Positions 29,263 through 48,159 of a stretch of 64,000 bases of DNA are shown piece after piece; within the stretch, counting starts at the first letter, position 1, and every line of letters begins with the position of its first letter. The DNA comes from Streptomyces sp. NP160. Its GTDB lineage: Bacteria > Actinomycetota > Actinomycetes > Actinomycetales > Quadrisphaeraceae. Where the stretch lies: NCBI RefSeq assembly GCF_006335115.1, contig NZ_VDMJ01000020.1, forward strand, positions 62,001 through 126,000, given 5' to 3'. A program made the position numbers and the translations under genes. The notes beneath the pieces are model-generated. The model saw nothing but the letters and a program-made list of their open reading frames with translations, had not been told where the DNA came from and did not search any database.

Positions 29263-29853
29263 ATGGCCTCCACCCCGACGCGCGGGCTGCGGCACGCCCG
29301 CACCGACTCACCGCTCGGACCGCTGGTGGTGGTCGTCGACGACGACGGCGCCCTCGCCGGCCTCTACTACGCCGACGGGCACACGCCCGCCCCGCGGCCG
29401 GCGGCGCTCGGCAGCTGCGCCGACCCCGACGACCCGCAGGTCGCTGACGTCACCACCGCCGTCCTCGCCCGCCTGGAGGGCGCGTCCGACGTGCTCGAGG
29501 TCCCGCTGAGCTGGGCCGCCGTGCCCGGCGCCACCGACCTGCAGCGCGCGGTGTGGGCGCAGGTCGCCGCGATCCCCCGCGGCGAGACGCGCACCTACGG
29601 GGAGGTGGCGGCGGCGATCGGCAGGCCGACCGCCGTGCGCGCCGTCGGGCAGGCGGTCGGGCGCAACCCGCACTCGCTCGTCGTCCCCTGCCACCGGGTG
29701 GTCGGGTCCGGCGGGAAGATCACCGGCTACGCCGGCGGCGTGGACGTCAAGCGCCGCCTGCTGGAGCTCGAGGGCGTCGCGCTCGCCGCCGGCACGCCGG
29801 TCAGCGACGCGCCGGGGGCGCCGGCTCCAGGTGCACCGCCTTCAGCGCCGTGA
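29263..29853 (+). CDS. ogt: Methylated-DNA-protein-cysteine methyltransferase
   Basis: 196 residues. It repairs O6-alkylguanine by moving the alkyl group to its own Cys. The helix-turn-helix region ([23 protein letters not shown]), [11 protein letters not shown] and the active site VVPCHRVVG followed by GKITGYAGG are all present. The C-terminal ~18 residues are Ala/Pro-rich and extend 53 nt into the end of the opposite-strand aldehyde dehydrogenase gene. Start: ATG 29263; GTG 29254 is in frame and possible. This is a suicide enzyme acting on nucleoid DNA. Confidence 0.94.
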
Positions 29854-31258
29854 GCTCGCCCAGCAGGTCCGGCCCGTAGCCGCGCCCGCGCCCGGAAGAG
29901 CGGCGCGGGTCGGCTGAGCCACCCGGTGCGCCGCCCCACACGGCGTTGACCTTGACGGTGCCGACCTCCAGCTCGTCGGCGGCCTGCAGCGCGTGGGCGG
30001 TGTCGGGCGTCAGCACGGTGGCGGCGAGCCCGTAGGCGCCGGAGCCCGCCAGGCGCAGCCCCTCCTCCCAGTCGGCCACCACGCGCACCGCCGCGACAGG
30101 ACCGAAGGTCTCCTCGGCCATGACGTCCATGTCGTCGGTGCACCCGACCAGCACGGTCGGCGGGTACCAGGCACCGGGCCGGTCCAGCCGCGCCCCGCCG
30201 GCCAGCGCCGTCGCACCCGCCGCGAGCGCGTCGTCCACGTGCTGCGCGACCACGGCGATCTGCCGCTCGTCGACGAGCGGCCCGAGCTCGCTCGCGGGGT
30301 CGGACGGGTCGGCGACGACGACTCCCCGTGCCAGCGCCACCAGCTCCTCCAGCACGGCGTCGGCGACGTCGGCGTGCAGGTACACGCGCTCCACCGACGT
30401 GCACAGCTGACCGGTGTTGGTGAAGGCGCCGGCGGCGATCTGGGCCGCGGCCCAGGCCGGGTCGACGCCGGCGTCGACCAGGAGCGGGTCCTTCCCGCCG
30501 TTCTCGAGCAGGGCGACCGCACCGCGGCCGCCGGCCACGGCGCCGATGCGCCGCCCCGTGGCGGTGGAGCCGACCTGCGCCACCACGTCGACGCGGTCGT
30601 CGGCGACCAGCGCCTCCCCCACCTCGCCGTCACCGGTCACCACCTGGAGCACCCCCGGCGGCAGTGAGGCGGCGATGAGCGCGGCCATCGCCGCGCCGGG
30701 CGCGCTGGAGCGCTCCGACGGCTTGTGCACCACGGTGTTCCCGGCCACCAGCGCCGCGGCGAGCAGGCCCGCGGCGGCGGGGAACGGGTCGTTCCAGGGC
30801 GTGATGACGGCGACCGTGCCGCGCGGCTCGCGGCGCACCACGTCGATGGCGCCCGACGCCCCGGCCAGCGATCGGCCGGCGTCCAGCACCCCGGTCGTGG
30901 CGGCCTCCTCGAGCAGCTCGGCGGCCACCACCGCGGAGCCGCGGGCCTGCCCCACCAGGCGGCCGGTGGTGGCGACGAGCAGGTCGCCGAGGGCGTCGGC
31001 GTGCTCCCGCACGGACGCGGCGGCGGCCCGCAGGGCCGAGGCGCGCTCCCCCGCCGCCGTCGCCCTCCAGCCGCGGCGGGCGGAGCGAGCCCCCGCGAGC
31101 GCGGCCTCCACCTGCTCGGCGGTGGCGCACCGGACCCGTCCGGACGGCTCGCCGGTGGAGGGGTCGACCAGCGGGAGGGACCGGCCCGCGGCGTCGACGG
31201 GGGCTCCGTCCAGCCAGCAGCCGGTGGTCAGGGCGGTGCTCTCGGTGCTCAGCGTCAC
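29801..31258 (-). CDS. Aldehyde dehydrogenase (NAD(P)+)
   Basis: 485 residues of the ALDH superfamily. Active-site residues visible: Asn in TPWNDPFP, Lys in HKPSERSSAP, Glu in LLENGGKDPLLV (usually ELGGK) and the nucleophile in NTGQLCTSVERV. It oxidises an aldehyde to an acid; the substrate is unassigned, and the family includes succinate-semialdehyde and betaine-aldehyde enzymes. TAGACA-N6-GTG is a weak leaderless promoter match. The 3' end overlaps ogt tail to tail; the C-terminal PPARR is probably dispensable. Confidence 0.92.
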   Translation of the reverse strand: MTLSTESTALTTGCWLDGAPVDAAGRSLPLVDPSTGEPSGRVRCATAEQVEAALAGARSARRGWRATAAGERASALRAAAASVREHADALGDLLVATTGRLVGQARGSAVVAAELLEEAATTGVLDAGRSLAGASGAIDVVRREPRGTVAVITPWNDPFPAAAGLLAAALVAGNTVVHKPSERSSAPGAAMAALIAASLPPGVLQVVTGDGEVGEALVADDRVDVVAQVGSTATGRRIGAVAGGRGAVALLENGGKDPLLVDAGVDPAWAAAQIAAGAFTNTGQLCTSVERVYLHADVADAVLEELVALARGVVVADPSDPASELGPLVDERQIAVVAQHVDDALAAGATALAGGARLDRPGAWYPPTVLVGCTDDMDVMAEETFGPVAAVRVVADWEEGLRLAGSGAYGLAATVLTPDTAHALQAADELEVGTVKVNAVWGGAPGGSADPRRSSGRGRGYGPDLLGELTALKAVHLEPAPPARR

Positions 31259-31402: not shown

Positions 31403-33118
31403 ATGAAGGTGCTGGGCGTCAACGCCGTCTTCCACGACTCCTCCGCCGCGCTCGTGGTGGACGGCGTCGTGGTGGCCGCCGCCGAGGAGGAGCGCTTCTC
31501 CCGGCGCAAGCACGGCAAGCGGCCGGTGCCGTTCTCGGCGTGGGAGCTGCCCGAGCTGGCGATGCGCTGGTGCCTGGAGCACGCGGGCCTGACCGTCGAC
31601 GACCTCGACGCCGTCGCCTACGGCTACGACCCGTCGATGGCGCTGAGCGAGGAGGAGGGCCACGAGCGCGGCCTGCGCGACCCGTGGGACCACCTGCGCA
31701 CCACCTACGCCTCCCGGGCCGCCGGCTTCCTCGCCACCGCGCTGCCGGGGCTGGACAAGAGCAAGGTCGTCTTCGTCCCCCACCACGTCGCGCACGCGGC
31801 GAGCTCAGGCCTGGCGGGGCCGTCCACCACGGGGAGCGTGCTCGTGCTCGACGGCCGCGGCGAGCGCGGCAGCCACCTGTCGGGCCGCTACGTCGACGGC
31901 AAGCTCGAGGTGCTGGCCACCACCGAGCTGCCGCACTCCCTCGGCCTGGTCTACGAGTCGCTCACCGACCACCTGGGCTTCCTGCGGTCCTCCGACGAGT
32001 TCAAGGTCATGGCGATGGCCTCCTACGGCACACCGCGCCACCTGGAGGCGCTGCGCGAGCACGTGCACGCCACCGGCGACGGCCGCTTCGTGGCGACCGA
32101 GCCCGACTGGGCCCGGTTCGCCCCGCGCCGCACCCCCGCCGAGGCCGCGGCCACCAGCGCGGAGGCCCTCCCGCCCGAGCACGCCGACCTCGCCGCGTCC
32201 GTGCAGGCGCTCACCGAGGAGGTCCTCGTCGACCTCGCGACCTGGCTGCACGAGCAGACCGGCGACACCCTGCTGACGATGGCCGGCGGCACCGCGCTGA
32301 ACTGCGTGGCCAACACGAAGATCTGGCAGCGCACCCCCTTCGAGCAGGTGTGGGTGCAGCCCGCCGCCGGTGACTCCGGCACGGCCCTGGGCGCCGCGCT
32401 GCAGGTGGCCGCCGAGCACGGTGACCGCATCCGCCCGATGGGCACCGCCGCGCTGGGCCGGGAGTGGACGGACGAGCAGCTGGCCGACTGGCTGCGCACC
32501 GCCAAGGTCCCCTTCACCACCCCCGGCAGCCGCGAGGCGCTCGCCGAGGAGGTCGCCGACGTGCTCGCCGCCGACGGCGTGGTCGCCTGGTTCGACGGGC
32601 GCAGCGAGTTCGGGCCCCGCGCCCTGGGCCGCCGCTCCCTCATCGCCCACCCCGGCCACGCGCACAACGTGGAGCGGATGAACGACGTCAAGGGCCGCGA
32701 GCAGTTCCGCCCCATCGCCCCCATGGTGCTGGCCGAGCGCGCGCAGGACGTCTTCGAGAACGGTCCGTTCCCGAGCCCGTACATGCTCTTCGTGCACGAC
32801 GTGAAGGCGGAGTGGCGCGAGAGGATCCCCGCTGTGACGCACGTCGACGGCACCGCCCGCATCCAGACCGTCAGCGACGGCGGAGCCGGGGTCTCCGGTG
32901 AGGTCGACGAGAGCGCCAACCCCGGCGTCCACGCCCTCATCACCGCCTTCGAGCGGCGCACCGGCCTGCCCGTGGTGGTGAACACCAGCCTCAACACCGC
33001 CGGCCGCCCCATGGTCGACGACCCCCGCGACGCGCTCGAGCTGTTCGGGTCCGCCCCCGTCGACGTGCTGGTCCTCGGCCCGCACCTCGTGCGCCGGCAG
33101 AGCTTCTTCGCCTCGTGA
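31403..33118 (+). CDS. NodU/CmcH-family carbamoyltransferase
   Basis: 571 residues. The N-terminal Kae1-like ATPase domain begins MKVLGVNAVFHDSSAALV and has the metal motif HHVAHA (VFVPHHVAHAASSG). GSVLVLDGRGE, SDEFKVMAMASYG and MAGGTALNCVANTKI follow. The C-terminal YrdC-like half has WFDGRSEFGPRALGRRSLIAHP and VVNTSLNTAGRPMV. These enzymes use carbamoyl phosphate and ATP to carbamoylate a hydroxyl on sugars or antibiotics (NodU, TobZ, CmcH). It leads the ADP-heptose/glycosyltransferase operon and overlaps the next gene, so the acceptor is probably a sugar of that product. Confidence 0.93.
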   Translation: MKVLGVNAVFHDSSAALVVDGVVVAAAEEERFSRRKHGKRPVPFSAWELPELAMRWCLEHAGLTVDDLDAVAYGYDPSMALSEEEGHERGLRDPWDHLRTTYASRAAGFLATALPGLDKSKVVFVPHHVAHAASSGLAGPSTTGSVLVLDGRGERGSHLSGRYVDGKLEVLATTELPHSLGLVYESLTDHLGFLRSSDEFKVMAMASYGTPRHLEALREHVHATGDGRFVATEPDWARFAPRRTPAEAAATSAEALPPEHADLAASVQALTEEVLVDLATWLHEQTGDTLLTMAGGTALNCVANTKIWQRTPFEQVWVQPAAGDSGTALGAALQVAAEHGDRIRPMGTAALGREWTDEQLADWLRTAKVPFTTPGSREALAEEVADVLAADGVVAWFDGRSEFGPRALGRRSLIAHPGHAHNVERMNDVKGREQFRPIAPMVLAERAQDVFENGPFPSPYMLFVHDVKAEWRERIPAVTHVDGTARIQTVSDGGAGVSGEVDESANPGVHALITAFERRTGLPVVVNTSLNTAGRPMVDDPRDALELFGSAPVDVLVLGPHLVRRQSFFAS

Positions 33119-34767
33119 GGCCCGCTCGCTGGGCCGTCGTCGTCCCCTCGGTCGGCCGGCCCAGCCTGCAGGTGCTGCTCGACTCCCTCGCCTCCCAGGA
33201 CGCGGCCCAGGACGCGGCCCAGGACGGCGGCGCGCGGCCGGCGCTGGTCGTCGTCGTCGACGACCGGCGGCTGACCGACGAGGGATCCGGACCGCCGGCG
33301 CTGGTGCCGGCGCTCGCCCTCGACGGCGTCGAGCTGGTCGTGGTGCGCTCCGGCGGCCGCGGCCCCGCCGCGGCGCGCAACCTCGGGTGGCGCACCGCCG
33401 CCGCGCGCGTGCCGGACCTGGAGTGGGTCGCGTTCGTCGACGACGACGTCGAGCTGCCCCCGGCGTGGTCCCGCGAGCTGCTCGCCGACCTCGCCGCGGT
33501 CGAGCGGGCGGTCCCGCGCGTCGGCGGCTCGCAGGGCCGGCTGCACGTGCCGCTGCCCACCGGCCGGCGCCCCACCGACTGGGAGCGCGGCACCGCGGGG
33601 CTGGCCGACGCGGCGTGGGCGACCGCCGACATGGCCTACCGCCTGGACGCCCTCGTGGCCGTGGGCGGCTTCGACGAGCGGTTCCCGCGGGCCTACCGGG
33701 AGGACGCCGACCTCGCGCTGCGCGTCGAGCGCGCCGGCTGGTCGCTGGTGCGCGGGCGGCGCACCGCCGTGCACCCCGTGCGCCCCGCCGACGACTGGGT
33801 GAGCGTGCGGGTGCAGCGCGGGAACGCCGACGACGTGCTCATGGCCGCCCTGCACGGCCCGACGTGGCGCCGCGACGCGCAGGCGCCGCCGGGTCGGCTG
33901 CGCTGGCACGTCGCCACCGCGGCGGCGCTCGCGGTGGCCGGCCTCGGGGCCGTCAGCGGTCAGCGGCGGGCCGCGGCGCTGGGGGCGGTGGCGTGGGCGG
34001 GCCTGACCGCGGACTTCGCCCGGCGGCGCCTCGCGCCGGGACCTCGTGACGCCGCCGAGGTGCGGCGGATGGCGCTCACGTCCGCAGCGATCCCGGTCGC
34101 GGCCGTCTGGCACCGCCTGCGGGGGCTGCAGCGCTGGCGGTCGGCGCCCCCCGCGCCCTGGCCGGCCGCGCAGCGCGACGAGCCGCTGGCCGCTGTGCTC
34201 TTCGACCGGGACGGCACCCTCGTCCACGACGTCCCCTACAACGGCGACCCGGCCCAGGTGCGCCTGGTCGACGGCGCCCTCGAGGCGCTCGCCCGCGTGC
34301 GGGGCGCCGGGCTGCGCACCGGCCTGGTGACCAACCAGTCCGGGGTGGCCCGGGGGATCATCACCCGCGACGAGGCCGACGCCGTCACGGCCGAGGTGGT
34401 CCGGCAGGTCGGCGGCCTCGACGTCGTCATGACCTGCCCGCACGGCCCGGAGAGTGGTGACGGGGCCTGCGCGTGCCGCAAGCCCGGCCCCGGCATGGTC
34501 CTCGAGGCCGCACGCCGGCTCGGGGTCCCCGCGTCGCGCGTCGCCGTGGTGGGCGACATCGCCGCCGACGTGGGCGCCGCGGTGGCCGCCGGCGCCCGGG
34601 GCGTCATGGTCCCCACGTCCGTGACACGCTCCGAGGAGATCGCCGCCGCACGTGCTGCGGCAGCGGCTGGCGGCCCCGTGCTCGGCGTCGCCCCTGACCT
34701 GGCCGGCGCCGTCGACCTGCTGCTCGGCGCCGGTGACCGTCACCCGACCCCCGGAGGCACCCCGTGA
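33115..34767 (+). CDS. Glycosyltransferase GT2 fused to GmhB-type HAD phosphatase
   Basis: 550 residues. Residues 1-250 are a GT2 transferase: GGRGPAAARNLGW, the metal motif AFVDDDVELP and GGFDERFPRAYREDADLALR. A hydrophobic stretch (about 265-335) could touch the membrane. Residues 355-530 are a HAD-IIIA phosphatase like D-glycero-D-manno-heptose-1,7-bisphosphate 7-phosphatase: D364-R-D366-G-T, LVTNQSGVARG and the zinc cluster C441-P-H443 ... C452-A-C454-RKPGPGM. It should remove the 7-phosphate in ADP-heptose synthesis while the other half transfers a sugar. Overlaps both neighbours (GTGA). Confidence 0.9.
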   Translation: MRPARWAVVVPSVGRPSLQVLLDSLASQDAAQDAAQDGGARPALVVVVDDRRLTDEGSGPPALVPALALDGVELVVVRSGGRGPAAARNLGWRTAAARVPDLEWVAFVDDDVELPPAWSRELLADLAAVERAVPRVGGSQGRLHVPLPTGRRPTDWERGTAGLADAAWATADMAYRLDALVAVGGFDERFPRAYREDADLALRVERAGWSLVRGRRTAVHPVRPADDWVSVRVQRGNADDVLMAALHGPTWRRDAQAPPGRLRWHVATAAALAVAGLGAVSGQRRAAALGAVAWAGLTADFARRRLAPGPRDAAEVRRMALTSAAIPVAAVWHRLRGLQRWRSAPPAPWPAAQRDEPLAAVLFDRDGTLVHDVPYNGDPAQVRLVDGALEALARVRGAGLRTGLVTNQSGVARGIITRDEADAVTAEVVRQVGGLDVVMTCPHGPESGDGACACRKPGPGMVLEAARRLGVPASRVAVVGDIAADVGAAVAAGARGVMVPTSVTRSEEIAAARAAAAAGGPVLGVAPDLAGAVDLLLGAGDRHPTPGGTP

Positions 34768-35930
34768 CCACCCCGCAGCAGGACCCCCTCCCCGATCCGC
34801 AGCCGGACCCGCGGAGGGTGCTCGCCGTCCGCCTCGACAGCGACGGCGACGTCCTCATGACCGGCCCCGCCGTCGCCGCGCTGCGCCGCGGACCGGGCGG
34901 CACCGAGGTCGAGCGCCTCGACCTGCTCGCCTCCCCCGGTGGTGCCGGCGCCGCGCGGCTGCTGCCCGGCGTCGACGAGGTGCTCGTGGCCGACGTCCCG
35001 TGGTCCGGCTACCGGCCGCCGGCACCCGACGCCGACGCGCTCACCGCGCTGGTCGAGCTGCTGCGCGAGCGCGAGTACGACGAGGTGGTCGTCTTCACCT
35101 CCTACCACCAGAGCCCCCTGCCGATGGCGCTCATCGCACGCCTGGCGGGCGTGCCCCGCGTCATCGCCGCCAGCGACGACTACCCGGGCTCCCTGCTGGA
35201 CCTGCGCCACAAGCGCCCCGGGAACCCCGACGGCACCGGCGGCGAGCACGAGGTCGTGGCCAGCCTCGGGCTCGTGGCCGCGAGCGGCCGCCGGATCCCC
35301 GACGCCCCCCGGACGGCGCTGCGCCGCCCGCTGCCCGACGTGCCCGCGTGGCTGCTCGAGCGGGCCGGGTCGGCCGCGGGTGGTCGGGGGGCGCTCGTCG
35401 TGGTCCACCCCGGCGCCTCCGTGCCGGCCCGCGCCGCGCACCCGGACGTCGTCGCCCGCGCCGTCCGCGCTCTCGTCGAGGCGGGGCACCACGTGGTGGT
35501 CACCGGCGGTCCGGGCGAGGTGGAGCTCACAGGCCGCGTCGCCGCAGCCGCTCCCGGCGCCGTCGACGCCGGCGGGCGCACGTCGCTCGGCGAGCTCGCC
35601 GCGCTGCTGGACGCGGCGGACGTCGTCGTCGTCGGCAACACCGGCCCGGCCCACCTCGCGGCCGCCGTCGGCACGCCCGTGGCCAGCCTCTTCTCCGCGG
35701 TGATGCCCGTGGAGCGCTGGGCGCCGTTCGGCGTGCCCGTGGTGGTGCTGGGAGACCTCACCGCGCCGTGCCGCCTCACGCGCGTGCAGGTGTGCCCGGT
35801 GGCGGGCCACCCGTGCCTGGACGTCTCCCCCGGGGCCGTCGTGGCCGCCGTCGCCGACCTCGCCGCCGGTCGCGTGCCCGTGCCCCCGCCCGCGCGGCCG
35901 GTGCCCGTCGAGACCGGCCAGGCCCTGTGA
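34764..35930 (+). CDS. GT9 heptosyltransferase-family glycosyltransferase
   Basis: 388 residues, GT-B fold. RRVLAVRLDSDGDVLMTGPAVAALR is the N-terminal acceptor domain, and the C-terminal half has VVHPGAS, HVVVTGGPGE and GNTGPAHLAAAVGTPVASLF, all typical of LPS heptosyltransferases (WaaC/WaaF/WaaQ), followed by a Cys-containing VCPVAGHPCL like that of WaaF. It would use an ADP-heptose donor, which this operon can make. Acceptor unknown, since the host should lack LPS. GTGA overlaps at both ends show translational coupling. Confidence 0.88.
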   Translation: MTTPQQDPLPDPQPDPRRVLAVRLDSDGDVLMTGPAVAALRRGPGGTEVERLDLLASPGGAGAARLLPGVDEVLVADVPWSGYRPPAPDADALTALVELLREREYDEVVVFTSYHQSPLPMALIARLAGVPRVIAASDDYPGSLLDLRHKRPGNPDGTGGEHEVVASLGLVAASGRRIPDAPRTALRRPLPDVPAWLLERAGSAAGGRGALVVVHPGASVPARAAHPDVVARAVRALVEAGHHVVVTGGPGEVELTGRVAAAAPGAVDAGGRTSLGELAALLDAADVVVVGNTGPAHLAAAVGTPVASLFSAVMPVERWAPFGVPVVVLGDLTAPCRLTRVQVCPVAGHPCLDVSPGAVVAAVADLAAGRVPVPPPARPVPVETGQAL

Positions 35931-36937
35931 GCGACGGGTCCCGCCGCCTGAGGGTGCTCCTCTGGCACGTCCACGGCTCGTGGACCACGGCCTTCGTGCA
36001 GGGCCGGCACGACTACCTCGTGCCCGTGCTGCCCGACCGGGGCCCCGACGGGCGCGGACGCGCCCGCACCTGGGACTGGCCGGCGTCCGTGCGCGAGGTC
36101 ACGCCCGAGCAGCTCGCGGCAGGCGGCGAGGCGCGGCCGGGCGTCGTCGTCCTCCAGCGGCCCCACGAGGCCGCGCTGCTGCGGGAGTGGACCGGGCTGC
36201 GCGCCGGGGTCGACGTGCCCGCGGTGTACGTCGAGCACGACTCCCCCCGAGAGCACGCCGCCCGCTCCCGCCACCCACTGCTCGACCTGGACGGGCAGCT
36301 GGGCGCCCGGCTGCCCGTGGTGCACGTGACGCACTTCAACGCGCTCATGTGGGACTGCGGCGACCTGCCCACCCGCGTGGTGGAGCACGGCGTCGTCGAC
36401 CCGGGGCACCTGGCCACCGGGGAGCGCGCGTCGCTGGCCGTGGTGGTCAACGAGCCGGTGCGCCGCTGGCGCGTGGCCGGCACCGACCTCGTGGTCGACC
36501 TCGCCCGGCGGGTGCCGCTGGACGTCTACGGCATGGGGATGGACGCGCTGCAGCGATGCGCGCCCCACCTCGCCGGCCACCTCCACGAGGACCTGCCGCA
36601 GGCGCGGATGCACGCCGAGGTGGCCCGCCACCGCGCCTACCTCCACCCCTACCGGTGGACCAGCCTGGGCCTGGCGCTCGTGGAGGCCATGACCATGGGC
36701 CTGCCGGTGCTGGCCCTGGCCACCACGGCGGCGCCCGAGTCGGTGCCACCGGAGGCGGGGTTCCTGTCCACGGACCCCGCCGCGCTGGAGCGGACGGCGC
36801 AGCGCTGGCTGGACGACCCGGCCGAGGCGCGAGAGCGTGGCCTCGCCGCCCGCGAGCACGCCCTGCGCCGCTTCGGGCTGGCGCGCTTCCTCGCCGACTG
36901 GGACGACGTCCTGGGAGGCGCCGGGGTCCAGCAGTAG
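35927..36937 (+). CDS. Glycosyltransferase, GT4-like
   Basis: 336 residues. It begins RRLRVLLWHVHGSWTTAFVQGRHDYLVPV and contains VYVEHDSPREH and VTHFNALMWDCG. The donor-binding half carries YGMGMDALQ, HLHEDLPQARMH, YLHPYRWTSLGLALVEAMTMGLPVLA (E-x7-E of GT4-type enzymes, given as separate parts: S-L-G-L-A-L-V-E-A-M). This sub-type is often annotated only as glycosyltransferase family 1/4. It overlaps the preceding GT9 gene by GTGA. Donor and acceptor unknown. Confidence 0.8.
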   Translation: MSDGSRRLRVLLWHVHGSWTTAFVQGRHDYLVPVLPDRGPDGRGRARTWDWPASVREVTPEQLAAGGEARPGVVVLQRPHEAALLREWTGLRAGVDVPAVYVEHDSPREHAARSRHPLLDLDGQLGARLPVVHVTHFNALMWDCGDLPTRVVEHGVVDPGHLATGERASLAVVVNEPVRRWRVAGTDLVVDLARRVPLDVYGMGMDALQRCAPHLAGHLHEDLPQARMHAEVARHRAYLHPYRWTSLGLALVEAMTMGLPVLALATTAAPESVPPEAGFLSTDPAALERTAQRWLDDPAEARERGLAAREHALRRFGLARFLADWDDVLGGAGVQQ

Positions 36938-36990
36938 GCCCCCGGGGTCGAGCCCACGGCCCCTCCTGGCTCCACCAGGGGAGACATCGG

Positions 36991-38286
36991 ATGAGGATCG
37001 CGATGGTCTCCGAGCACGCCAGCCCGCTGGCCGTCCTCGGAGGTGTCGACGCCGGCGGGCAGAACGTGCACGTCGCAGCGCTGGCGCAGGCGCTGGCCGC
37101 CCGCGGGCACCAGGTGGAGGTGTACACGCGGCGCGACGACGCGGTGCTCCCCCGGCGCGTGCGCATGGCGCCCGGTGTGGACGTGGTCCACGTCGACGCC
37201 GGCCCCGCCCGGCCGGTGCCCAAGGACGAGCTGCTGCCGTGGATGCCGGCGTTCGCGGCCTGGCTGCAGCGCGCCTGGGCGCCCCGCGAGACCCGCCCCG
37301 AGGTGGTGCACGCCCACTTCTGGATGTCCGGCCTGGCGGCGCTCGAGGCCGGGCGCGCGCTGGGCGTGCCCGTGGTGCAGACCTTCCACGCGCTCGGGTC
37401 CGTCAAGCGCCGCCACCAGGGCGACCACGACACCTCCCCCGCCCGGCGAATCGCCCTGGAGGCCGGCCTGGTCCGCGACGTCGACCTCGTGGTGGCCACC
37501 TGCCGCGACGAGGTGGCGGAGCTCGACGCGCTCGCGACGCCGCGCCGCCGCCCGGCGGTGGTGCCGTGCGGGGTGGACGTGGAGCACTTCGAGCCGGAGG
37601 GCCCCGCCGAGCCGCGCGCCGCGGGCAGCCCCAGGTTCCGCCTGGTGAGCGTGGGCCGGCTCGTGGAGCGCAAGGGCGTCGAGACGGCCGTGCGCGCCCT
37701 GGCGGTGCTCCCCGACGTCGAGCTGGTGGTGGCCGGCGGGCCCCCGCCGCACGAGCTGCACCTCGACCCGGAGGCCGTCCGGCTGCGCAGCGTCGCGCGC
37801 TCCCTCGGCGTGGCCGACCGCCTGCTGCTCGTGGGGCAGGTGGAGCAGCCCGACGTCCCGCGGCTGCTGCGCTCGGCGGACGTGTCGGTGAACGTGCCCT
37901 GGTACGAGCCGTTCGGCATCGCCCCGCTGGAGGCGATGGCGTGCGGCCTGCCCGTGGTCGGCACCGCCGTGGGCGGCCTCCTCGACACCGTCGTGGAGGG
38001 CTCCACCGGGGCCCTCGTCGAGCCCCGGGACGCCGCGGCGCTGGCCGCGGCGGTGCGCGGGCTCCTCGACGACCCCGCCCGTCGCCGCCGCTGGGGACGG
38101 GCGGGGCGCCGCCGCGCGCTGGCCCACTACGGCTGGGACCGCGTGGCGGCATCGACGGAGGACGCCTACGGTCGGGCCGTGAGGGGTGCCTCCCGCAGGG
38201 CGGTGGCTCCCGCGACGACGGTGGAGACGCGCCCTGACCAGCGCGCGGCCCTCCTCGCGCACTTCGACGAGCAGGAGGCTGTGTGA
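36991..38286 (+). CDS. Glycosyltransferase family 4
   Basis: 431 residues with a clear GT4 layout: MRIAMVSEHASPLA, GGVDAGGQNVHVAALAQALA (the GGx3GGxxxH-like start seen in sucrose-synthase/MshA-related enzymes), VVHAHFWMSGLAAL, RLVSVGRLVERKGVETAVRAL and the E-x7-E motif in YEPFGIAPLEAMACG. ATG 36991 has AGGGGAG 7 nt upstream. The closest general relatives are MshA and mannosyltransferases, but context (heptose genes on both sides) suggests transfer in the same glycan. Its stop overlaps the next start. Confidence 0.9.
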   Translation: MRIAMVSEHASPLAVLGGVDAGGQNVHVAALAQALAARGHQVEVYTRRDDAVLPRRVRMAPGVDVVHVDAGPARPVPKDELLPWMPAFAAWLQRAWAPRETRPEVVHAHFWMSGLAALEAGRALGVPVVQTFHALGSVKRRHQGDHDTSPARRIALEAGLVRDVDLVVATCRDEVAELDALATPRRRPAVVPCGVDVEHFEPEGPAEPRAAGSPRFRLVSVGRLVERKGVETAVRALAVLPDVELVVAGGPPPHELHLDPEAVRLRSVARSLGVADRLLLVGQVEQPDVPRLLRSADVSVNVPWYEPFGIAPLEAMACGLPVVGTAVGGLLDTVVEGSTGALVEPRDAAALAAAVRGLLDDPARRRRWGRAGRRRALAHYGWDRVAASTEDAYGRAVRGASRRAVAPATTVETRPDQRAALLAHFDEQEAV

Positions 38287-40463
38287 GCACGACGGGCGCT
38301 CCCCGCGACCCCAGCGGCCGGTCCCACCCGGGCAGCACCCCCGCGGCCGACTGGCTGGCGCAGCACCGCGGCGAGGTCGACGCGACGGTGGCCGGCCTGC
38401 AGGACGCCGCCGAGCTGCTCGACGCCTGGGGCCGCCACCTCGCCGAGGTGCTCGGGGGCGGCGGGCGGCTGCTCGCGGCCGGCAACGGCGGCAGCGCCGC
38501 CGAGGCGCAGCACCTCACGGCCGAGCTGGTGGGCCGGTTCGTGGCCGAGCGGCGGCCCCTGTCGGCCATCGCGCTGCACGCCGAGACCTCCTCCACCACC
38601 GCCATCGGCAACGACTACGGCGCCGCCGAGGTCTTCGCCCGCCAGGTGCAGGCCCACGGCCGCCCCGGTGACGTGCTGCTGCTGCTGTCGACGTCCGGGC
38701 GCAGCGAGAACGTCGTCCGCGCGGCGCAGGCGGGCCGCCGCGCCGGCCTGCGGGTGTGGGCGCTGACCGGTCCCGCCCACAGCCCGCTGGCGGAGGCCAG
38801 CGACGAGGTGCTGCGCGTCGGCGAGCCGGGCTCGTCCACCTCCGCGGTGCAGGAGGGCCACCTCGTGGTGGTCCACGCGCTGTGCGCCGCCGTCGACGCC
38901 CACCTCCTGGGGACGACGACGAGCGCGGCGGCGCCCGCCCCCGCTGCCGCGGCGGCCGTCTCGTCCGCGCCCCTCGACGTCCGTCCGTCCGCGGCGCGCG
39001 CGCCGCGCGCGGCGGGGGTGCGCCGCCCGCGCGTCGTCGTCGTGGGTGACGCGGTGCTCGACAGGGACCTGCTGGGGCGCAGCGACCGGGTGGCGCCCGA
39101 CGCGCCCGTGCCCGTCGTCGACCTCACCGGCCTGGACGAGAGCCCCGGCGGCGCCGGGCTCACCGCCCTGCTCGTGGCGGGGCGCGCGCAGACGTCGCTC
39201 GTCGCCCCGGTCGCCGACGACGACGCGGGCCGCCGCCTGCGCGAGGGTCTCGAGGGTGCGGCGGAGCCCGTCGAGGTCGTGGCGCTGGGCCACGCCGGCG
39301 GCACCCGCACCAAGACCCGCGTCCGCGTGGCCGGGCAGTCGCTCGTGCGCCTGGACGAGGGCGGCCCGGCCACCCCGGTCGACGTCGAGGCGTCCGTGCT
39401 CGCCGAGGCCCTGGCCGACGCCGACGTCGTGCTCGTCAGCGACTACGGCGCGGGCACCACACGCGACCCGGTGGTCCGCGAGGCGCTGGCCGCGGCTGCG
39501 CGCCGCGTGCCGGTGGTGTGGGACCCGCACCCCCGCGGCGGCGCCCCGGTGCCGGGCTGCGCGCTGGTGACGCCCAACCTCTCCGAGGCCCGTGCCGCCG
39601 CGTCCCAGGCGGTCGCCGGCGCCTCCCCCGACGTCCTCGCCGAGCACCTCGCCTCCACCTGGGGCGTGCGCGGCGTCTGCGTGACCACCGGTGCCCAGGG
39701 CGCCTGGCTCGCCTCTCCCGGCACCGACGCGGTCTTCGCGCCGGCGGCCGTGGTGGCCGGCGGAGACCCGTGCGGTGCCGGCGACAGCTTCGCGGCGTCC
39801 GCCGCCGTGTCGCTCGCCACCGGCCGGGTGCTCTCGGAGGCCGTGGTCGCCGCCGTGGCCGACGCCTCGGCGTGGGTCGCCGGGGGCGGCGCCTCCGGGT
39901 GGCGCGCCGCCCAGCGCGAGGCGGCCTCGCTGGGCGCCGCTGCCGCCAGCACGGCCGAGCGGAGCGCCCCGAGCAGCGCCGCCGACGTCGTCGCCCGCGT
40001 GCGCGCCACCGGCGGCACCGTGGTGGCCACGGGCGGCTGCTTCGACGTGCTGCACGCCGGCCACGTCGCCACCCTCGAGGCCGCGCGCCGGCTGGGCGAC
40101 GCGCTCGTCGTGCTGCTCAACGCCGACTCCTCGGTGCGCCGGCTCAAGGGCCCCACCCGGCCCGTCAACGACGAAGTGGACCGCGCCCGGGTGCTCGCCG
40201 CGCTCGACTGCGTGGACGCCGTCGTCGTCTTCTCCGAGGACGACCCCCGCACCGCCCTGGCCGACCTGCGTCCCGACGTGTGGGCCAAGGGCGGCGACTA
40301 CGGCGGGGCCGAGCTGCCCGAGGCGCCGCTGGTGCGCGGCTGGGGCGGCCGGGTCGTGCTGCTGCCCTACCTCGACGGGCGCTCCACCACCTCCATCCTC
40401 GCCCGCGGCGCCGTGCCCTCGGTGACGCCGGCCACCTCGAAGCACCAGGAGACGACCTCTTGA
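38283..40463 (+). CDS. Trifunctional GmhA-HldE: sedoheptulose-7-P isomerase, heptose-7-P kinase, heptose-1-P adenylyltransferase
   Basis: 726 residues in three modules. Residues 20-210 are GmhA (SIS fold: GNGGSAAEAQH77, E81, IGNDYG, STSGRSENV, Q190 and H198 as metal/catalytic sites). After an Ala-rich linker (211-248), residues 249-530 are the HldE kinase (VVVVGDAVLDRDL, RVAPDAPVPVV, SPGGAG, catalytic D501 in GAGD). Residues 575-715 are the HldE nucleotidylyltransferase (GGCFDVLHAGH with HxGH 591-594, RLKGPTRPVN, VWAKGGDY). With the GmhB domain at 33115-34767 this covers sedoheptulose-7-P to ADP-D-glycero-D-manno-heptose. Nucleotide choice (ADP) is inferred from HldE similarity. Confidence 0.93.
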   Translation: MSTTGAPRDPSGRSHPGSTPAADWLAQHRGEVDATVAGLQDAAELLDAWGRHLAEVLGGGGRLLAAGNGGSAAEAQHLTAELVGRFVAERRPLSAIALHAETSSTTAIGNDYGAAEVFARQVQAHGRPGDVLLLLSTSGRSENVVRAAQAGRRAGLRVWALTGPAHSPLAEASDEVLRVGEPGSSTSAVQEGHLVVVHALCAAVDAHLLGTTTSAAAPAPAAAAAVSSAPLDVRPSAARAPRAAGVRRPRVVVVGDAVLDRDLLGRSDRVAPDAPVPVVDLTGLDESPGGAGLTALLVAGRAQTSLVAPVADDDAGRRLREGLEGAAEPVEVVALGHAGGTRTKTRVRVAGQSLVRLDEGGPATPVDVEASVLAEALADADVVLVSDYGAGTTRDPVVREALAAAARRVPVVWDPHPRGGAPVPGCALVTPNLSEARAAASQAVAGASPDVLAEHLASTWGVRGVCVTTGAQGAWLASPGTDAVFAPAAVVAGGDPCGAGDSFAASAAVSLATGRVLSEAVVAAVADASAWVAGGGASGWRAAQREAASLGAAAASTAERSAPSSAADVVARVRATGGTVVATGGCFDVLHAGHVATLEAARRLGDALVVLLNADSSVRRLKGPTRPVNDEVDRARVLAALDCVDAVVVFSEDDPRTALADLRPDVWAKGGDYGGAELPEAPLVRGWGGRVVLLPYLDGRSTTSILARGAVPSVTPATSKHQETTS

Positions 40464-41215
40464 CCAGCACCACCCCGTCCACCGCCCCGTCCACCCCGCT
40501 GCTGGACGGGATGGAGCTCGAGCGCCCGCTCGGCACCGTCTACGTGACCGGCGGCTCCAGCGGCCTCGGCGCCGCCGTGGTCGAGGTGGTGACGGCCCTC
40601 GGCGGCACCGCCGCCGTCATCGACAGGGCCGCGCCGCCGGAGGGATCGCCCGCAGCGGCGCACGCCCTCGCCGACGTCTCCGACGCCGCCGCCGTCGAGC
40701 GCGCCGTGGCGTCCCTCGTGGAGCAGGTGGGCCCGCCCACCGCGCTGTTCACCGCCGCCGGCACCGACGCGGTGGGCCGGCTCGAGGACGTCCCCGCCGA
40801 CCGGTGGGAGAAGGTCATCGGGGTGAACCTCATCGGCACGGCCGCAGCCGTGCGGGCGTGCCTGCCGCACCTCGTGGCCGCGCGCGGCACCGTGGTGACG
40901 GTGGCCAGCTCCCTCGGGCTGCGCGCCGCCAGCGACGCCACCGCCTACTGCGCCAGCAAGTTCGGCATCGTCGGGTTCACGCGCTCGCTGCAGCTGGAGC
41001 TGGCCGGGCAGGTGGGCGTGACGATGCTCGTGCCCGCCGGGATGCGCACCGCCTTCTTCGACGGGCGCACCGAGCAGTACCGGCCCGGCCCGGACGCCGC
41101 GCTCATGGACCCGCGCCAGGTGGCGCTGTCGGTGGTGCACGCGCTGCGGCAGCCGGTCGGCACCGAGGTGCGCGAGATCGTGGTCACCGTCTCCACGGAG
41201 CCGTCCTGGCCCTGA
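40460..41215 (+). CDS. Short-chain dehydrogenase/reductase in heptose operon
   Basis: 251 residues from TTG 40460 (AGGAG 8 nt upstream; TTGA overlap with the preceding stop). Classical SDR: VYVTGGSSGLGAAV (TGxxxGxG), AAGTDAVG, catalytic Ser in VASSLG and Y-x3-K in AYCASKFG. It is too short and of the wrong type for HldD, the extended-SDR ADP-heptose 6-epimerase, so it may instead oxidise or reduce the heptose or a later product. Substrate unknown. Confidence 0.85.
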   Translation: MTSTTPSTAPSTPLLDGMELERPLGTVYVTGGSSGLGAAVVEVVTALGGTAAVIDRAAPPEGSPAAAHALADVSDAAAVERAVASLVEQVGPPTALFTAAGTDAVGRLEDVPADRWEKVIGVNLIGTAAAVRACLPHLVAARGTVVTVASSLGLRAASDATAYCASKFGIVGFTRSLQLELAGQVGVTMLVPAGMRTAFFDGRTEQYRPGPDAALMDPRQVALSVVHALRQPVGTEVREIVVTVSTEPSWP

Positions 41216-41225
41216 GGCCCCGCTC

Positions 41226-42173
41226 GTGACGACGGTGCTCGCGCTGCGGGCGCTGGGGCTCGGCGACGCCCTCACCGGCGTCCCCGCCCTGCGGGGCCTG
41301 CGGCGGGCCCGCCCGGACGCGAGGCTGGTGCTCGCCGGGCCGCCCGAGACGGGCGCGCTGCTCGTGGCCGAGGGCGTGGTCGACGCGGTGCTGCCCGTGC
41401 GCGGGCTGGCGCCGCTGGAGCCCGACGCGCTGCTGCGTGCCGCCGCCGACCACCCCGACGTGCTGGGCGGCGGCGGCCGGTCGACGGTCGACCTGGCGGT
41501 CAACCTGCACGGCCGCGGGCCGCAGAGCACGCAGGCGCTGGCCGCGCTGCGTCCCGCCCGGCTCGTGGCGTACGACGCCCCAAGCCAGGCCGCCTGGGAC
41601 GGCGAGGCGCACGAGGTGGAGCGCTGGTGCGCCCTCGTGCGCGGTCTCGGCGGGGCGTGCGGCCCGGAGGACCTCGTGCTGCGCGACGTGCCCCTCGAGG
41701 CGCGCGCGGGCCCGGTGGTGGTGCACCCCGGCGCCGCCTCGCCGTCGCGGCGCTGGCCGGCGCAGCGCTGGGCGCAGGTCGTGGCCGCGCTGCGGGACGC
41801 CGGCCGCGTCGTCGTCGTGACCGGGGGGCCGGACGAGGCGCCGGTGTGCGCGCAGGTGGCGGCCGCCGGTGCCGACGACCTGTGCGGGCGGCTGTCGCTG
41901 GCCCAGCTGCTGGACCTGGTGGCCTCCAGCCCGCTGCTGCTGTCCGGCGACACCGGCGCCGCGCACGTGGCCACGGCCACCCGCACGCCGTCGGTGCTGC
42001 TCTTCGGGCCCACGTCGCCGGCGCGGTGGGGTCCGGCGGTGGACGCCGACCGCCACCGGGTGCTCTGGCGTCCCCGCGCGGGGGACGCGCAGGGTGACCC
42101 GCACGGGTCGTCCCCCGACCCCGTCCTCCTCCGGACCACGGTGCACGACGTGCTCACGGGTACGGTGGACTGA
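41226..42173 (+). CDS. Second GT9 heptosyltransferase-family glycosyltransferase
   Basis: 315 residues. VLALRALGLGDALTGVPALRGLRRARP is the acceptor-side start (given in parts: L-G-L-G-D-A-L-T-G-V-P-A-L), VNLHGRGPQS follows, and the donor half has VVHPGAASPSRRWP, VVVVTGGPDE, LSGDTGAAHVATATRTPSVLLFG (key D-T-G-A-A-H). It is a closer match to the standard heptosyltransferase pattern than the gene at 34764. Two GT9 enzymes suggest at least two heptoses or two linkages. It overlaps the OhrR-like gene by one base. Confidence 0.88.
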   Translation: MTTVLALRALGLGDALTGVPALRGLRRARPDARLVLAGPPETGALLVAEGVVDAVLPVRGLAPLEPDALLRAAADHPDVLGGGGRSTVDLAVNLHGRGPQSTQALAALRPARLVAYDAPSQAAWDGEAHEVERWCALVRGLGGACGPEDLVLRDVPLEARAGPVVVHPGAASPSRRWPAQRWAQVVAALRDAGRVVVVTGGPDEAPVCAQVAAAGADDLCGRLSLAQLLDLVASSPLLLSGDTGAAHVATATRTPSVLLFGPTSPARWGPAVDADRHRVLWRPRAGDAQGDPHGSSPDPVLLRTTVHDVLTGTVD

Positions 42174-42652
42174 TGCAACCCACCGAGCAGGCGTCTCAGG
42201 AGGCCGCGGCGCCGGGCGGGGACTTCGAGGTCCGCGAGATGCTGTGCCTCGCCCTGCACCGCGCCTCGCGGGCCATCACGTCGCAGTACCGGCCGCTGCT
42301 CGCGCCCCACGGGCTGACCTACCCGCAGTACCTCGTCATCACGCTGCTGCGCATCAGCGGCACCACCACGGTGGGCGGGGTCGGCGAGGAGCTGGGCCTG
42401 GAGTCGAGCACGCTGTCCCCGCTGCTGACGCGCCTGGCCGAGCGCGGGCTGGTCACCCGGACCCGCTCCACCGACGACGAGCGGCGCGTGGAGGTCTCGC
42501 TGACGCCCCAGGGCAGGGCGCTCGGCGAGGAGCTCGCCGACGTGCCCTGGGCCGTGTGCCGCGCCACGGGGCTGAGCGTCCCGGAGATGAAGGGCGTGGT
42601 GGCGCAGCTGACCGAGATGGTCGACCGGCTGGAGAGGCCTCCGGCCGCCTGA
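42173..42652 (+). CDS. MarR/OhrR-family regulator
   Basis: 159 residues with the winged-helix core (YPQYLVITLLR, VGGVGEELGLESSTLSPLLTRLAERGLVTR, RRVEVSLTPQG). MLCLALHRASRAI carries the N-terminal reactive Cys at the position used by OhrR to sense organic peroxides. No ohr gene is adjacent; the downstream hydrolase may be a target. A short inverted repeat GGTCG-N9-CGACC (42663-42681) lies just after the gene and before the hydrolase, a weak operator candidate. It overlaps the GT9 gene (TGATG), so it is cotranscribed with the glycan operon. Confidence 0.87.
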   Translation: MQPTEQASQEAAAPGGDFEVREMLCLALHRASRAITSQYRPLLAPHGLTYPQYLVITLLRISGTTTVGGVGEELGLESSTLSPLLTRLAERGLVTRTRSTDDERRVEVSLTPQGRALGEELADVPWAVCRATGLSVPEMKGVVAQLTEMVDRLERPPAA

Positions 42653-45537: not shown

Positions 45538-46068
45538 GGACAGCGGCAGGGTCCGCACGGGCTCCCAGGGGCCGCCGTCGTAGCGCCACAGCTCCAGCGC
45601 CGCCGCGCGGGCGTGCCACGGGGCCACCTCCACCTCGAGGCGGTCCGCGAGCGCCCGGGCGCGGGCCGGGTCGACCTTGTTCTGCACGGTGACGTGCGCG
45701 CGCAGGCGGTGGCGGTCCTGGGCCGTGAGGGCGTCGTCGCCGAGCTCGGAGCGCAGGCGCGACAGCAGCTGCGCGTGCAGTGCGTCGAGCTCCCGGGAGA
45801 CCACCTTCAGGGCGGTCCCGCGCCCCAGCCGCATGACCTCGCCGACCCTCGCGCCGAAGGCCGGGGTGGCGGCCGCCCGCTCGGCGAGCACCTCCTGCAC
45901 GCGCTGGGCCTCGGCTCCCGGCAGCGCGTGGAAGAAGGTCACGTGGGCGGGCAGGTGGTTGCGGTCCGCGGGGAAGTGCGCGCGGCGCAGGCCGTCGAGG
46001 CGCTGCTGGCTCTGCTCGTCCAGGGCCAGGGTCACCACGAGCGGCCGTGCGTCCGCGCGGTCCGTCAC
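45532..46068 (-). CDS. 2'-5' RNA ligase family protein
   Basis: 178 residues from GTG 46068, overlapping the UXS stop (GTGA). The 2H phosphoesterase fold is shown by its two H-x-T motifs, in [12 protein letters not shown] and [10 protein letters not shown]. Such proteins (ThpR/LigT) join or open 2'-5' RNA bonds or act as cyclic phosphodiesterases. Its coupling to a sugar-nucleotide enzyme may be accidental. Confidence 0.85.
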
Positions 46069-47078
46069 GCGGCCTGCCGCAGCCCCGTGAAGAAGTCCAC
46101 GGTGCTGGCCAGGCCCTGCTCCCACGGCACGGCAGGCTCCCAGCCCAGCAGCGTGCGCGCCAGCGTCGTGTCGGGACGGCGCACCTGCGGGTCGTCCACG
46201 GGACGCTCCACGAACCGCACCTGCGAGCGCGAGCCGGTGGCTGCCACGACGTCCTCGGCGATCTGCCGGACGGTCATCTCGTGCGGGTTGCCCACGTTCA
46301 CCGGACCCGGGTGCCCGCTGCCGGCCAGCGCGAGGATGCCGCGCACCAGGTCGTCGACGTAGCAGACCGACCGCGTCTGCATCCCGTCACCGGCCACGGT
46401 GATCGGCTCCCCCGCGAGCGCCTGGCGGATGAAGGTGGGGATGGCGCGCCCGTCGTGCGGGCGCATCCTCGGGCCGTAGGTGTTGAAGATCCGCACGATG
46501 GCGGTGTCGACGTCGTGGGTGGTCCGGTAGGCCGTGGTCATCGCCTCGGCGTAGCGCTTGGCCTCGTCGTAGACCCCGCGCGGGCCGACGGGGTTGACGT
46601 GGCCCCAGTAGTCCTCCGGCTGGGGGTGCACCTGCGGGTCCCCGTAGACCTCGCTGGTGGAGGCCAGCAGGAACCGCGCGCCCTTCTCCTTGGCCAGGCC
46701 GAGCGCGTGCAGCGTGCCGATCGCGCCGACCTTGAGGGTCTCGATGGGCAGCTGCAGGTAGTCGATCGGGGACGCCGGCGAGGCGAAGTGCAGCACCAGG
46801 TCGACCTCGCCCGGGACGTGCACGAAGTCGGTGATGTCGCAGCGCACCATCCGGAACTGCGAGGACGGGTACCGCTCGGCCAGGTGGGCCACGTTGCCCG
46901 GCCCGCCGGTGAGGAAGGAGTCCAGGCACACCACCTGGGTGCCGCGGGCGAGCAGCTCCTCGCACAGGTGGCTGCCGAGGAACCCGGCGCCACCGGTCAC
47001 CACCGCGCGGCGGAACCCGCGCTGGGGCAGCACGGTCGACGGGGTCGGGTCGGGCTGGGTGGGGCTGGGCTGGGCCAC
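46065..47078 (-). CDS. UDP-glucuronate decarboxylase-like (UXS) NAD-dependent epimerase
   Basis: 337 residues, an extended [24 protein letters not shown] is the NAD loop (TGGAGFLG). [13 protein letters not shown] and [10 protein letters not shown] are characteristic of UDP-xylose synthases, followed by [10 protein letters not shown]-x3-K in [11 protein letters not shown] and [14 protein letters not shown]. The predicted reaction converts UDP-glucuronate to UDP-xylose and CO2. GGGAG lies 7 nt before GTG 47078. It is divergent from two GT2 genes that may use the product. It is not an HldD, whose signatures are absent. Confidence 0.87.
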
Positions 47079-47205: not shown

Positions 47206-48159
47206 ATGCCCAGCACCGAGCCCGCCGACGACAGCCTCGACCCGCGCCTGGGCGTGGTGGTCATCACCTGGCAGCGCCGTGACGAGGCCCTCGCGGCCGT
47301 CGCGCGCCTGGTGGAGCTGCCCGAGCGGCCGCGCGTCGTCGTCGTCGACAACGGCTCCACCGACGGCACGGCCGGCGCGCTGCGCCGAGCCTTCCCCGCG
47401 GCGGTGGCCTCCGGGCAGCTGGAGGTGGTGGCGCTGGCGCACAACGCCGGCGCCGTGGGGCGCAACACCGGGGTGGCGCGCCTGGCGGAGCTGGGGCTGC
47501 GCTACGCCGCCTTCTGCGACGACGACACCTGGTGGGAGCCGGGCAGCCTCGCCCGCGCCGCCGACGTGCTGGACGCCCACCCCGACGTCGCCGTCCTCAC
47601 CGCGCGGATCGTGGTGGAGCCCAGCGGGCGGGAGGACCCGATCGTCGCGGAGCTGCGCGACTCCCCCGTGGTGGGGTCTCGTCCGGACCTGCCGGGCCCG
47701 GCGCTGGGCAGCTTCCTCGCGGGGGCCTCCGTGGTGCGCGTCGACGCCTTCCAGCAGGTGGGCGGCTTCTCCCCGCGGCTGTGGCTGGGCGGTGAGGAGG
47801 AGATGTGCGCGGCCGACCTCGCCGCCGCCGGCTGGGAGCTGTGCTACCTGCCCGACCTCACCGTGCACCACCTGGCCTCGACGCTGCGCGACTCCTCCCT
47901 GCGGCGCCGCCACGGCATCCGGAACACCGTCTGGTTCACGCTGCTGCGCCGCCCCTGGCCCGCGGCGCTGCGGCGGCTGCGCGTGCTCGCCCGGCAGGTG
48001 CCCAAGGACCGGACGACGGCGCTGGCCGTCGCGGACGCCGTGCGCGGCCTGCCGTGGGTGCTGCGCGAGCGGCGCCCGCTGCCACCGCACGCCGAGGCGC
48101 GCTTCCTGGCCCTGGAGGACGCCCAGACCCGCTCGACGGCGAGGAGCTACGTCGGATGA
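47206..48159 (+). CDS. Glycosyltransferase family 2
   Basis: 317 residues from ATG 47206; CAGGAT 8 nt upstream is a likely -10 box. GT2 features: LGVVVITWQRRDEALAAVARL, VVVVDNGSTDGTAGAL, NAGAVGRNTGVARL, FCDDDTWWEPGS (metal motif) and GGFSPRLWLGGEEEMCAADL. It is related to rhamnosyl- and galactofuranosyl-type enzymes. It overlaps the next GT2 (ATGA), which is clearly a paralogue. Confidence 0.9.
   Translation: MPSTEPADDSLDPRLGVVVITWQRRDEALAAVARLVELPERPRVVVVDNGSTDGTAGALRRAFPAAVASGQLEVVALAHNAGAVGRNTGVARLAELGLRYAAFCDDDTWWEPGSLARAADVLDAHPDVAVLTARIVVEPSGREDPIVAELRDSPVVGSRPDLPGPALGSFLAGASVVRVDAFQQVGGFSPRLWLGGEEEMCAADLAAAGWELCYLPDLTVHHLASTLRDSSLRRRHGIRNTVWFTLLRRPWPAALRRLRVLARQVPKDRTTALAVADAVRGLPWVLRERRPLPPHAEARFLALEDAQTRSTARSYVG

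Follow-up and report, generated by a model that had tools for sequence, protein, structure and literature searches.

What would an actinobacterium do with a supply of activated heptose? The question is raised by nine genes that lie in one run on the + strand, at 31403-42652, of a 64,000-nucleotide stretch from Streptomyces sp. NP160 (contig NZ_VDMJ01000020.1; the whole stretch is referred to as the window, and gene coordinates are positions in it). A sequence-only reading had recognized heptose-pathway and glycosyltransferase domains there, and had stated that the block could not be matched to a described product. That statement has to be revised: in content and order, the block matches the cwg operon of Streptomyces coelicolor, as seen through Streptomyces coelicoflavus. 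We consider that the locus is a cwg-type envelope-glycan operon whose product is probably an envelope glycan (probability about 0.7), and that the nine-gene run very probably builds a heptose-containing envelope sugar chain.

The cwg operon was named in 2002 (Hong et al. 2002, as cited in PMC13011467, PMC3123327), and consists in S. coelicolor of twelve genes, cwgA-L (SCO6179-SCO6190; PMC6767563), with a cell-wall glycan as the predicted product. In print, cwgB, C, E, G and J are putative transferases, cwgD is a putative dehydratase, cwgH a phosphoheptose isomerase and cwgI a bifunctional synthase/transferase (PMC5839063); cwgE is also given as a putative heptosyl transferase (PMC5882110). In S. 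coelicolor, the operon is induced by vancomycin, partially dependent on sigma-E and co-regulated with wall genes (PMC6767563). Its genes are up in an argR mutant (PMC5839063), cwgA is up with salt (PMC13011467), and SCO6185 was among the five steadiest transcripts of 13 candidate reference genes (PMC4630627). No structure of the cwg product was found in passages of these open-licence papers or in literature searches aimed at it, which agrees with the earlier remark that the product itself is undescribed.

The gene order of the S. coelicoflavus locus (L123) is UDP-glucuronate decarboxylase (UDP-xylose synthase, UXS), carbamoyltransferase (CbmT), GT2, GmhB, GT9a, GT4a, GT4b, GmhA, HldE, GT9b, GT2y and GT2x, and its proteins share 47-68% identity with those of the window in the best aligned piece. 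The printed cwg products fit this order at seven of eight genes, most tellingly at cwgH and cwgI. L123 also contains the promoter published for cwg of S. coelicolor, with three mismatches, where shuffling led us to expect 0 such matches; it lies 161 nt before the first possible UXS start, and the distance printed for S. coelicolor is 147 bp (PMC6767563). All twelve cwg-type genes are present in the window: UXS, the carbamoyltransferase, three GT2, GmhB, two GT9, two GT4, GmhA and HldE.

The window genes were assigned by calling Pfam domains over curated cut-offs and by comparing NCBIfam models with their equivalog or subfamily cut-offs. The run opens with a NodU/CmcH-type O-carbamoyltransferase (CbmT, cwgB-like; 31403-33118; PF02543 and PF16861). 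It is followed by a fusion (33115-34767; cwgC plus cwgD-like) of a GT2 glycosyltransferase, about residues 1-345 (PF00535), and a GmhB-like heptose bisphosphate phosphatase, about residues 353-550 (HAD-IIIA/GmhB models). Then come the putative heptosyltransferase GT9a (cwgE-like; 34764-35930; PF01075, 60.9 bits), the GT4-like glycosyltransferase GT4a (cwgF-like; 35927-36937; PF13692, PF00534 and PF13524), the GT4 glycosyltransferase GT4b (cwgG-like; 36991-38286; PF00534 and PF13439), and a protein of 726 amino acids that joins a GmhA isomerase, an HldE kinase and an HldE nucleotidylyltransferase (cwgH plus cwgI-like; 38283-40463; PF13580, PF00294 and PF01467). A classical short-chain dehydrogenase/reductase (SDR), considered accessory (40460-41215; PF00106, 115.8 bits; TGGSSGLG and YCASK), a second putative heptosyltransferase, GT9b (cwgJ-like; 41226-42173; PF01075, 92.9 bits), and a MarR/OhrR-like regulator at the operon end (42173-42652; PF01047; OhrR model 95.9 against 200 bits) complete the run. 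The junctions measure, in order, -4, -4, -4, +53, -4, -4, +10 and -1 nt, so that seven of the eight overlap or lie within 10 nt.

The remaining cwg-type genes are detached, 3.4-6.4 kb downstream, and join the operon in many relatives. They are UXS (cwgA-like; 46065-47078, - strand; YDEAK), which scores 345 bits to UDP-glucuronate decarboxylase 1 (2b69) and 128 bits to the next enzyme kind, and the glycosyltransferases GT2x (cwgL-like; 47206-48159, + strand; PF00535, 58.3 bits) and GT2y (cwgK-like; 48156-49016, + strand; PF00535, 79.2 bits). The co-directional run of nine genes with seven tight junctions, as described in the sequence-only reading, is thus borne out by the gene models, and each domain that it listed (GmhA, HldE kinase, GmhB, nucleotidylyltransferase, two GT9, two GT4, one GT2, carbamoyltransferase, SDR and regulator) was found by Pfam or NCBIfam.

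By domain, every step of the early ADP-heptose pathway is covered, as had been proposed, with the enzymes split over the 38283-40463 protein and the C-terminal half of the 33115-34767 protein. NCBIfam labels the domains as GmhB, GmhA, HldE kinase and HldE nucleotidylyltransferase. The motifs GNGGSA (GmhA), GAGD (kinase) and GCFDVLHAGH (nucleotidylyltransferase) are intact, as are DRDGT, CPH and CACRKP in the GmhB domain (tested as the pattern DxDGT, C-x-H, C-x-C), and over the motif sites the GmhA and GmhB domains can be aligned with their E. coli counterparts. The nucleotidylyltransferase is borderline, with 179.4-182.9 bits to TIGR02199 in two scans and a cut-off of 181.5. An AlphaFold2 model of the three-domain protein built from ten sequences reached a mean predicted local distance difference test score of 75.8 and a predicted template-modelling score of 0.48; its low-confidence stretches (residues 211-245 and 553-563) fall between domains, and its best PDB fold match is Burkholderia HldA, followed by ribokinases and GmhA structures. 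Tridomain isomerase/kinase/nucleotidyltransferase enzymes have already been described (PMC11573728, PMC11461863).

LpxC, the one lipopolysaccharide (LPS) marker searched genome-wide, gave 0 matches, compared with matches in 4 of 14 control genomes. As the sole marker tested, it supports the earlier suggestion that LPS is absent, and points to a use of heptose other than LPS. A genome-wide search for HldD gave nine matches, the best at 94.3 against 274.6 bits, so that all stay under the cut-off, which 2 of 14 controls exceed; since the genome holds no convincing HldD, the heptose is probably used in its D,D form. HldD is an extended-type SDR. The SDR of the operon was rejected as an essential heptose epimerase, being a classical short SDR that does not occur in L123. 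The UXS gene was also rejected as HldD (TIGR02197, 59.1 against 274.6 bits, versus 345 bits to UDP-glucuronate decarboxylase).

From this domain content we infer the substrates and the order of transfer. The GmhA, kinase, GmhB and nucleotidylyltransferase domains would supply a nucleoside diphosphate (NDP)-D,D-heptose, from which both GT9 enzymes would transfer heptose; the GT4 and GT2 enzymes, with UDP-xylose from the detached UXS, would extend or decorate the chain; and the carbamoyltransferase would O-carbamoylate it at a presumed site. The envelope glycan, exported by a presumed route, may be attached to the wall, perhaps anchored by one of the LCP proteins of the genome (five matches, all outside the operon). 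Among solved structures, the carbamoyltransferase is closest to the carbamoyltransferase 7xb6 (286 bits) and to TobZ (284 bits). The GT9 family has exactly two matches in the genome, namely GT9a and GT9b of the operon, and 5 of 14 control genomes match. The mycothiol enzyme MshA, the nearest NCBIfam model for GT4b, was rejected as its identity (243 against 462.5 bits). Carbamoylated heptose occurs in Pseudomonas LPS; a link to this operon would be conjectural, and a single literature search for it yielded no paper.

How widely this gene set occurs was followed in two sets of loci. One set comprises twenty loci taken from other genomes of the same order. A named search via GmhA peptides, ranked on the window protein, kept the best 80 loci, including four from delta-type proteobacteria, and leaves 76 others, in which GmhA and HldE are present by construction. 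A gene was counted as present if its best aligned piece reached 40% identity and spanned 35% or more of the query, and the 76-locus counts include loci cut by contig ends. In the order, GmhB, GT9a and GmhA were each present in 18 of the 20 loci, GT4a and GT4b in 17 each, GT2c, SDR and GT9b in 15 each, CbmT in 14, UXS in 12, and GT2x and GT2y in 8 each; all ten core domains were present in 13. Contig ends truncate two of these loci (L043 and L051), and three of one family (L047-L049) are without the CbmT and GT2 parts. The 76 named loci hold GT4b in 67 cases, GT9a and GmhB in 65 each, GT4a in 64, GT9b in 59, SDR in 53, CbmT in 40, GT2c in 39 and UXS in 34, with all ten core domains in 32 loci and at least eight in 54. 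Among the matches listed are Streptomyces, Micromonospora, Actinoplanes, Actinomadura, Nocardia, Mycobacterium, Amycolatopsis, Lentzea, Arthrobacter, Cellulomonas, Kineococcus, Knoellia, Frankia relatives, Solirubrobacter, a Dormibacteraeota metagenome-assembled genome (MAG) and others. The gene set thus recurs in many actinobacteria; the order was compared in L123.

The nucleotidylyltransferase (TIGR02199, E <= 1e-30) occurs in 27 of 118 sampled genomes of the class, own genome included, a count of this domain alone and the better of two estimates. In a sample of the phylum it occurs in 23 of 149, own genome included, which is probably too low because at most seven candidates per genome were scored. 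In short, the cwg-type cluster is widespread yet patchy in Actinomycetota. Searched against plasmids, the window fusion matched nothing at 1e-40, although actinobacterial copies on plasmids were picked up with the E. coli query; no conclusion is drawn from this.

Neighbouring genes of the cluster are repeatedly fused, which suggests joint function. Of the 94 loci that hold both GmhA and HldE, 20 encode them in a single reading frame; GmhA is fused to GT4b in 6 of 84 loci and GmhB to GT9a in 11 of 82, and the GT2-GmhB fusion is found in 34 of 52. In the family of the window, GmhA and the kinase lie in one frame in all ten fetched loci, and two more genomes gave partial matches. A kinase-domain tree of 113 rows, rooted by midpoint only, splits a 98-row actinobacterial side (including the Dormibacteraeota row) from the side with 13 LPS-type rows, with support of 100/100; within the 98 rows many families group, though not all of them, as Pseudonocardiaceae appear in several places. 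The GmhA-HldE fusions are scattered over several places of this tree, occurring in the family of the window, in Cellulomonas hominis, Actinoplanes and Frankia relatives, and in a group of loci that mostly have no cwg neighbours. A single origin of the fusion is not shown by the one-change count, as that count compares the fused rows only with the LPS-type group and omits 79 rows. Two placements on the actinobacterial side stand out. The HldE of L043 (genome G025, filed in family f14) sits inside the window's genus, by contamination, transfer or filing error, and L118, a contig from a Candidatus Dormibacteraeota MAG, has part of a cluster of the actinobacterial type, by transfer or misbinning.

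A different kind of cluster was seen on pFRL5, a plasmid of Streptomyces sp. F8 (L154, 1-12122). It holds a GmhA-HldE-type gene of 653 codons, a GT9 and a carbamoyltransferase, along with a radical SAM protein, a P450, a serine hydroxymethyltransferase and an epimerase, and may be a cluster that makes a heptose natural product. On the kinase tree its HldE falls together with that of Streptomyces bambusae (L056). The window operon might likewise make a secreted or intracellular heptose metabolite, similar to the septacidin of Streptomyces fimbriatus, which uses heptose (PMC11461863), and pFRL5 shows that such a GmhA-HldE-type gene, a GT9 and a carbamoyltransferase can lie inside a natural-product-type cluster. 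We give this explanation little weight. The window cluster is without radical SAM, P450 or hydroxymethyltransferase-type tailoring genes. It encodes five glycosyltransferases, or seven if the detached GT2s are counted, and different families share its gene set. On the kinase tree pFRL5 groups, apart from the window, with L056, L060, L061, L062 and L064, which are largely without cwg neighbours. Of the earlier proposal of a heptose-containing, perhaps carbamoylated surface glycan or metabolite, the glycan remains the best inference, and the metabolite is the weaker part since the only annotated metabolic-looking cluster has other neighbours.

Several points weigh against an envelope glycan built from heptose by a cwg-type operon, and the first concern the supply enzymes. 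The scores stay under the cut-offs for the GmhA domain (TIGR00441, 146.7 against 209.45 bits), the kinase domain (TIGR02198, 147.1 against 345 bits; NF008454, 298.8 against 521 bits) and the GmhB domain (NF006506, 111.7 against 178 bits; a second model, 77.7 against 149.6 bits). The kinase pocket, moreover, is without residues that are strict in LPS-type kinases, so that the sugar could differ. The Asn of the GGAAN motif in E. coli HldE (residue 55), which is also found in all four delta-type loci, is replaced by Leu in the window (Leu293) and in 94 of the 96 loci outside the delta-type four (the other two have a Met and a gap). In a comparison of 24 hand-picked actinobacterial-type rows with 13 LPS-type references, the E. 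coli HldE residues N55, N59, E122, K154, K179, D182, Y186 and N288 were replaced in all 24 rows, and each was retained in at least 12 of the 13 references. The Asn of ribokinase touches the sugar. By its scores and the Leu, the window kinase does not classify as an LPS-type HldE kinase. HldEs of Nonomuraea and Arthrobacter from a plasmid collection retain the Asn and fall beside the LPS-type rows on the kinase tree, with a long-branch warning, so that Leu marks the cwg-side type rather than actinobacteria as a whole. These replacements and the scores under equivalog cut-offs could mean that the pathway acts on another sugar phosphate, with a product other than manno-heptose. Such a change of substrate is very doubtful, given that the catalytic GAGD, GD..LD, K106, R108 and D120 are retained in the actinobacterial-type kinase rows, that a nucleotidylyltransferase at the TIGR02199 cut-off and GmhA and GmhB domains with intact motifs lie in the same operon, and that HldA is the top fold match of the three-domain model.

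The nucleotidylyltransferase has its own peculiarity. The window has Arg at position 5 of the STT motif, and so do 79 of the 96 loci; the other residues there are Tyr (11), His (3), Trp (2) and Val (1), compared with Lys in the delta-type four and Cys in E. coli. Arg at this position is reported to enable the synthesis of CDP- and UDP-heptose (PMC11573728, PMC11461863). The STTR5 motif is given as (F/L)XXGRSTT, and promiscuity reportedly does not strictly depend on the Arg (PMC11461863); the window has Arg-5 and GRSTT, with Tyr at the first position, where the motif has Phe or Leu. The exchange of Asn for Leu and the other changes in the kinase pocket, and Arg-5 in the nucleotidylyltransferase, may be two new details. 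A bolder version of the envelope-glycan explanation, which we consider unlikely though worth stating, is that a widespread actinobacterial envelope glycan is made from D-glycero-D-manno-heptose with a donor other than ADP-heptose, or in addition to it. The Arg-5 enzymes would make CDP- or UDP-heptose for use by the GT9s, and the kinase, with its rebuilt sugar pocket, would be a distinct actinobacterial subfamily of heptose kinases. If true, this use by the GT9s would be the first physiological role of these donors.

Further points of the same kind concern transfer and assembly. Compared with the WaaC/WaaF subfamily cut-offs, the GT9s reach at best 59.8 against 170.2 and 60.4 against 185.3 bits. 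They score 21-43 bits to solved LPS enzymes, GT9b being closest to WaaC and WaaF at 41-43. No flippase, polymerase or transporter was found by domain among the twelve genes. The missing polymerase and flippase, and a weak match of GT9b to TIGR04414 (autotransporter O-heptosyltransferase), would suit sugars that decorate a protein or glycolipid rather than a wall polymer. We hold this to be distinctly improbable, as the TIGR04414 match amounts to just 19.1 against 200 bits, and the co-regulation of the S. coelicolor operon noted above ties it to wall genes.

The link to cwg has weak places of its own. Gene order was compared via the close stand-in S. coelicoflavus rather than with the S. coelicolor genes, most printed cwg products are merely putative transferases, and the place of cwgD, printed as a dehydratase, holds a GmhB-like phosphatase in the order; we suspect that "dehydratase" is a HisB-derived name. 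Between 31259 and 31402, upstream of the operon, no sigma-E-like site was found; the stretch contains neither an AAC nor any match to a lenient pattern. The strict sigma-E pattern, which misses the L123 site that the lenient pattern finds, occurs in 8 of 102 upstream stretches of relatives versus 152 of 3000 random ones, without clear enrichment; sigma-E control of the window operon was rejected on these upstream sequences. Within the genus, the whole operon is present in three of five genomes. In G002 (L035, 8646-11320 of the fetched contig stretch), SDR and GT9b are gone. The fetched stretch of G005 (L036, 1852-7773; 290 contigs, 94% complete) is without CbmT, GT4a, GT4b, SDR and GT9b, and retains GT2-GmhB, GT9a, the three-domain fusion and the MarR gene; CbmT has no match in the whole G005 assembly at E <= 1e-100. 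If this is not assembly loss, heptose supply and GT9a would be the retained core. The regulator, which had been called OhrR-like, is present at the operon end but is not conserved: at 40% identity none of the 80 named loci has it, and the 6 loci that do among the 20 from the order all belong to the same family. It is probably not a pathway part.

Some neighbouring features were also recorded. A divergent aldehyde dehydrogenase gene (29801-31258, - strand) adjoins the operon, and a relative of it occurs in 29 of the 76 named loci and 13 of the 20 loci of the order. Downstream of their cwg-type cluster, loci of Microbacteriaceae and Micrococcaceae (L069, L073, L079, L084 and others) have an additional HldE copy, more distant than the first, as well as an aldehyde dehydrogenase. 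No Rfam family over its gathering score and no tRNA or tmRNA gene was found in the window.

In Actinomycetota, having a heptose supply together with GT9 enzymes is a trait that recurs. Reading the locus as NDP-heptose plus UDP-xylose plus carbamoyl names concrete sugars to seek for the cwg product, and the set of clusters is a large natural sample for the Arg-5 rule of nucleotide preference and for the altered kinase pocket.

Among known systems, the E. coli LPS ADP-heptose pathway (GmhA, HldE, GmhB, HldD and WaaC/F) has the first four steps, by domain, and the GT9 family in common with the window, whereas the window side is without an HldD over the cut-off and without LpxC, its kinase pocket is altered, and its GT9s are remote. 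The tridomain HENase (Tang et al. 2024, via PMC11573728, PMC11461863) carries the same three activities on one chain and Arg at STT-motif position 5, which the window has too (YLDGRSTT); it differs in that position 1 of the motif is Tyr in the window rather than Phe or Leu, and in that the window phosphatase is fused to a GT2. The pFRL5 cluster has an HldE on the same side of the tree and also a GT9 and a carbamoyltransferase, but it belongs to a separate subgroup and has other tailoring genes. Compared with the cwg operon itself, the window does not form one contiguous twelve-gene operon, as UXS (on the opposite strand) and two GT2s are detached downstream, and it has an added SDR, the GmhA-HldE and GT2-GmhB fusions and a trailing MarR gene.

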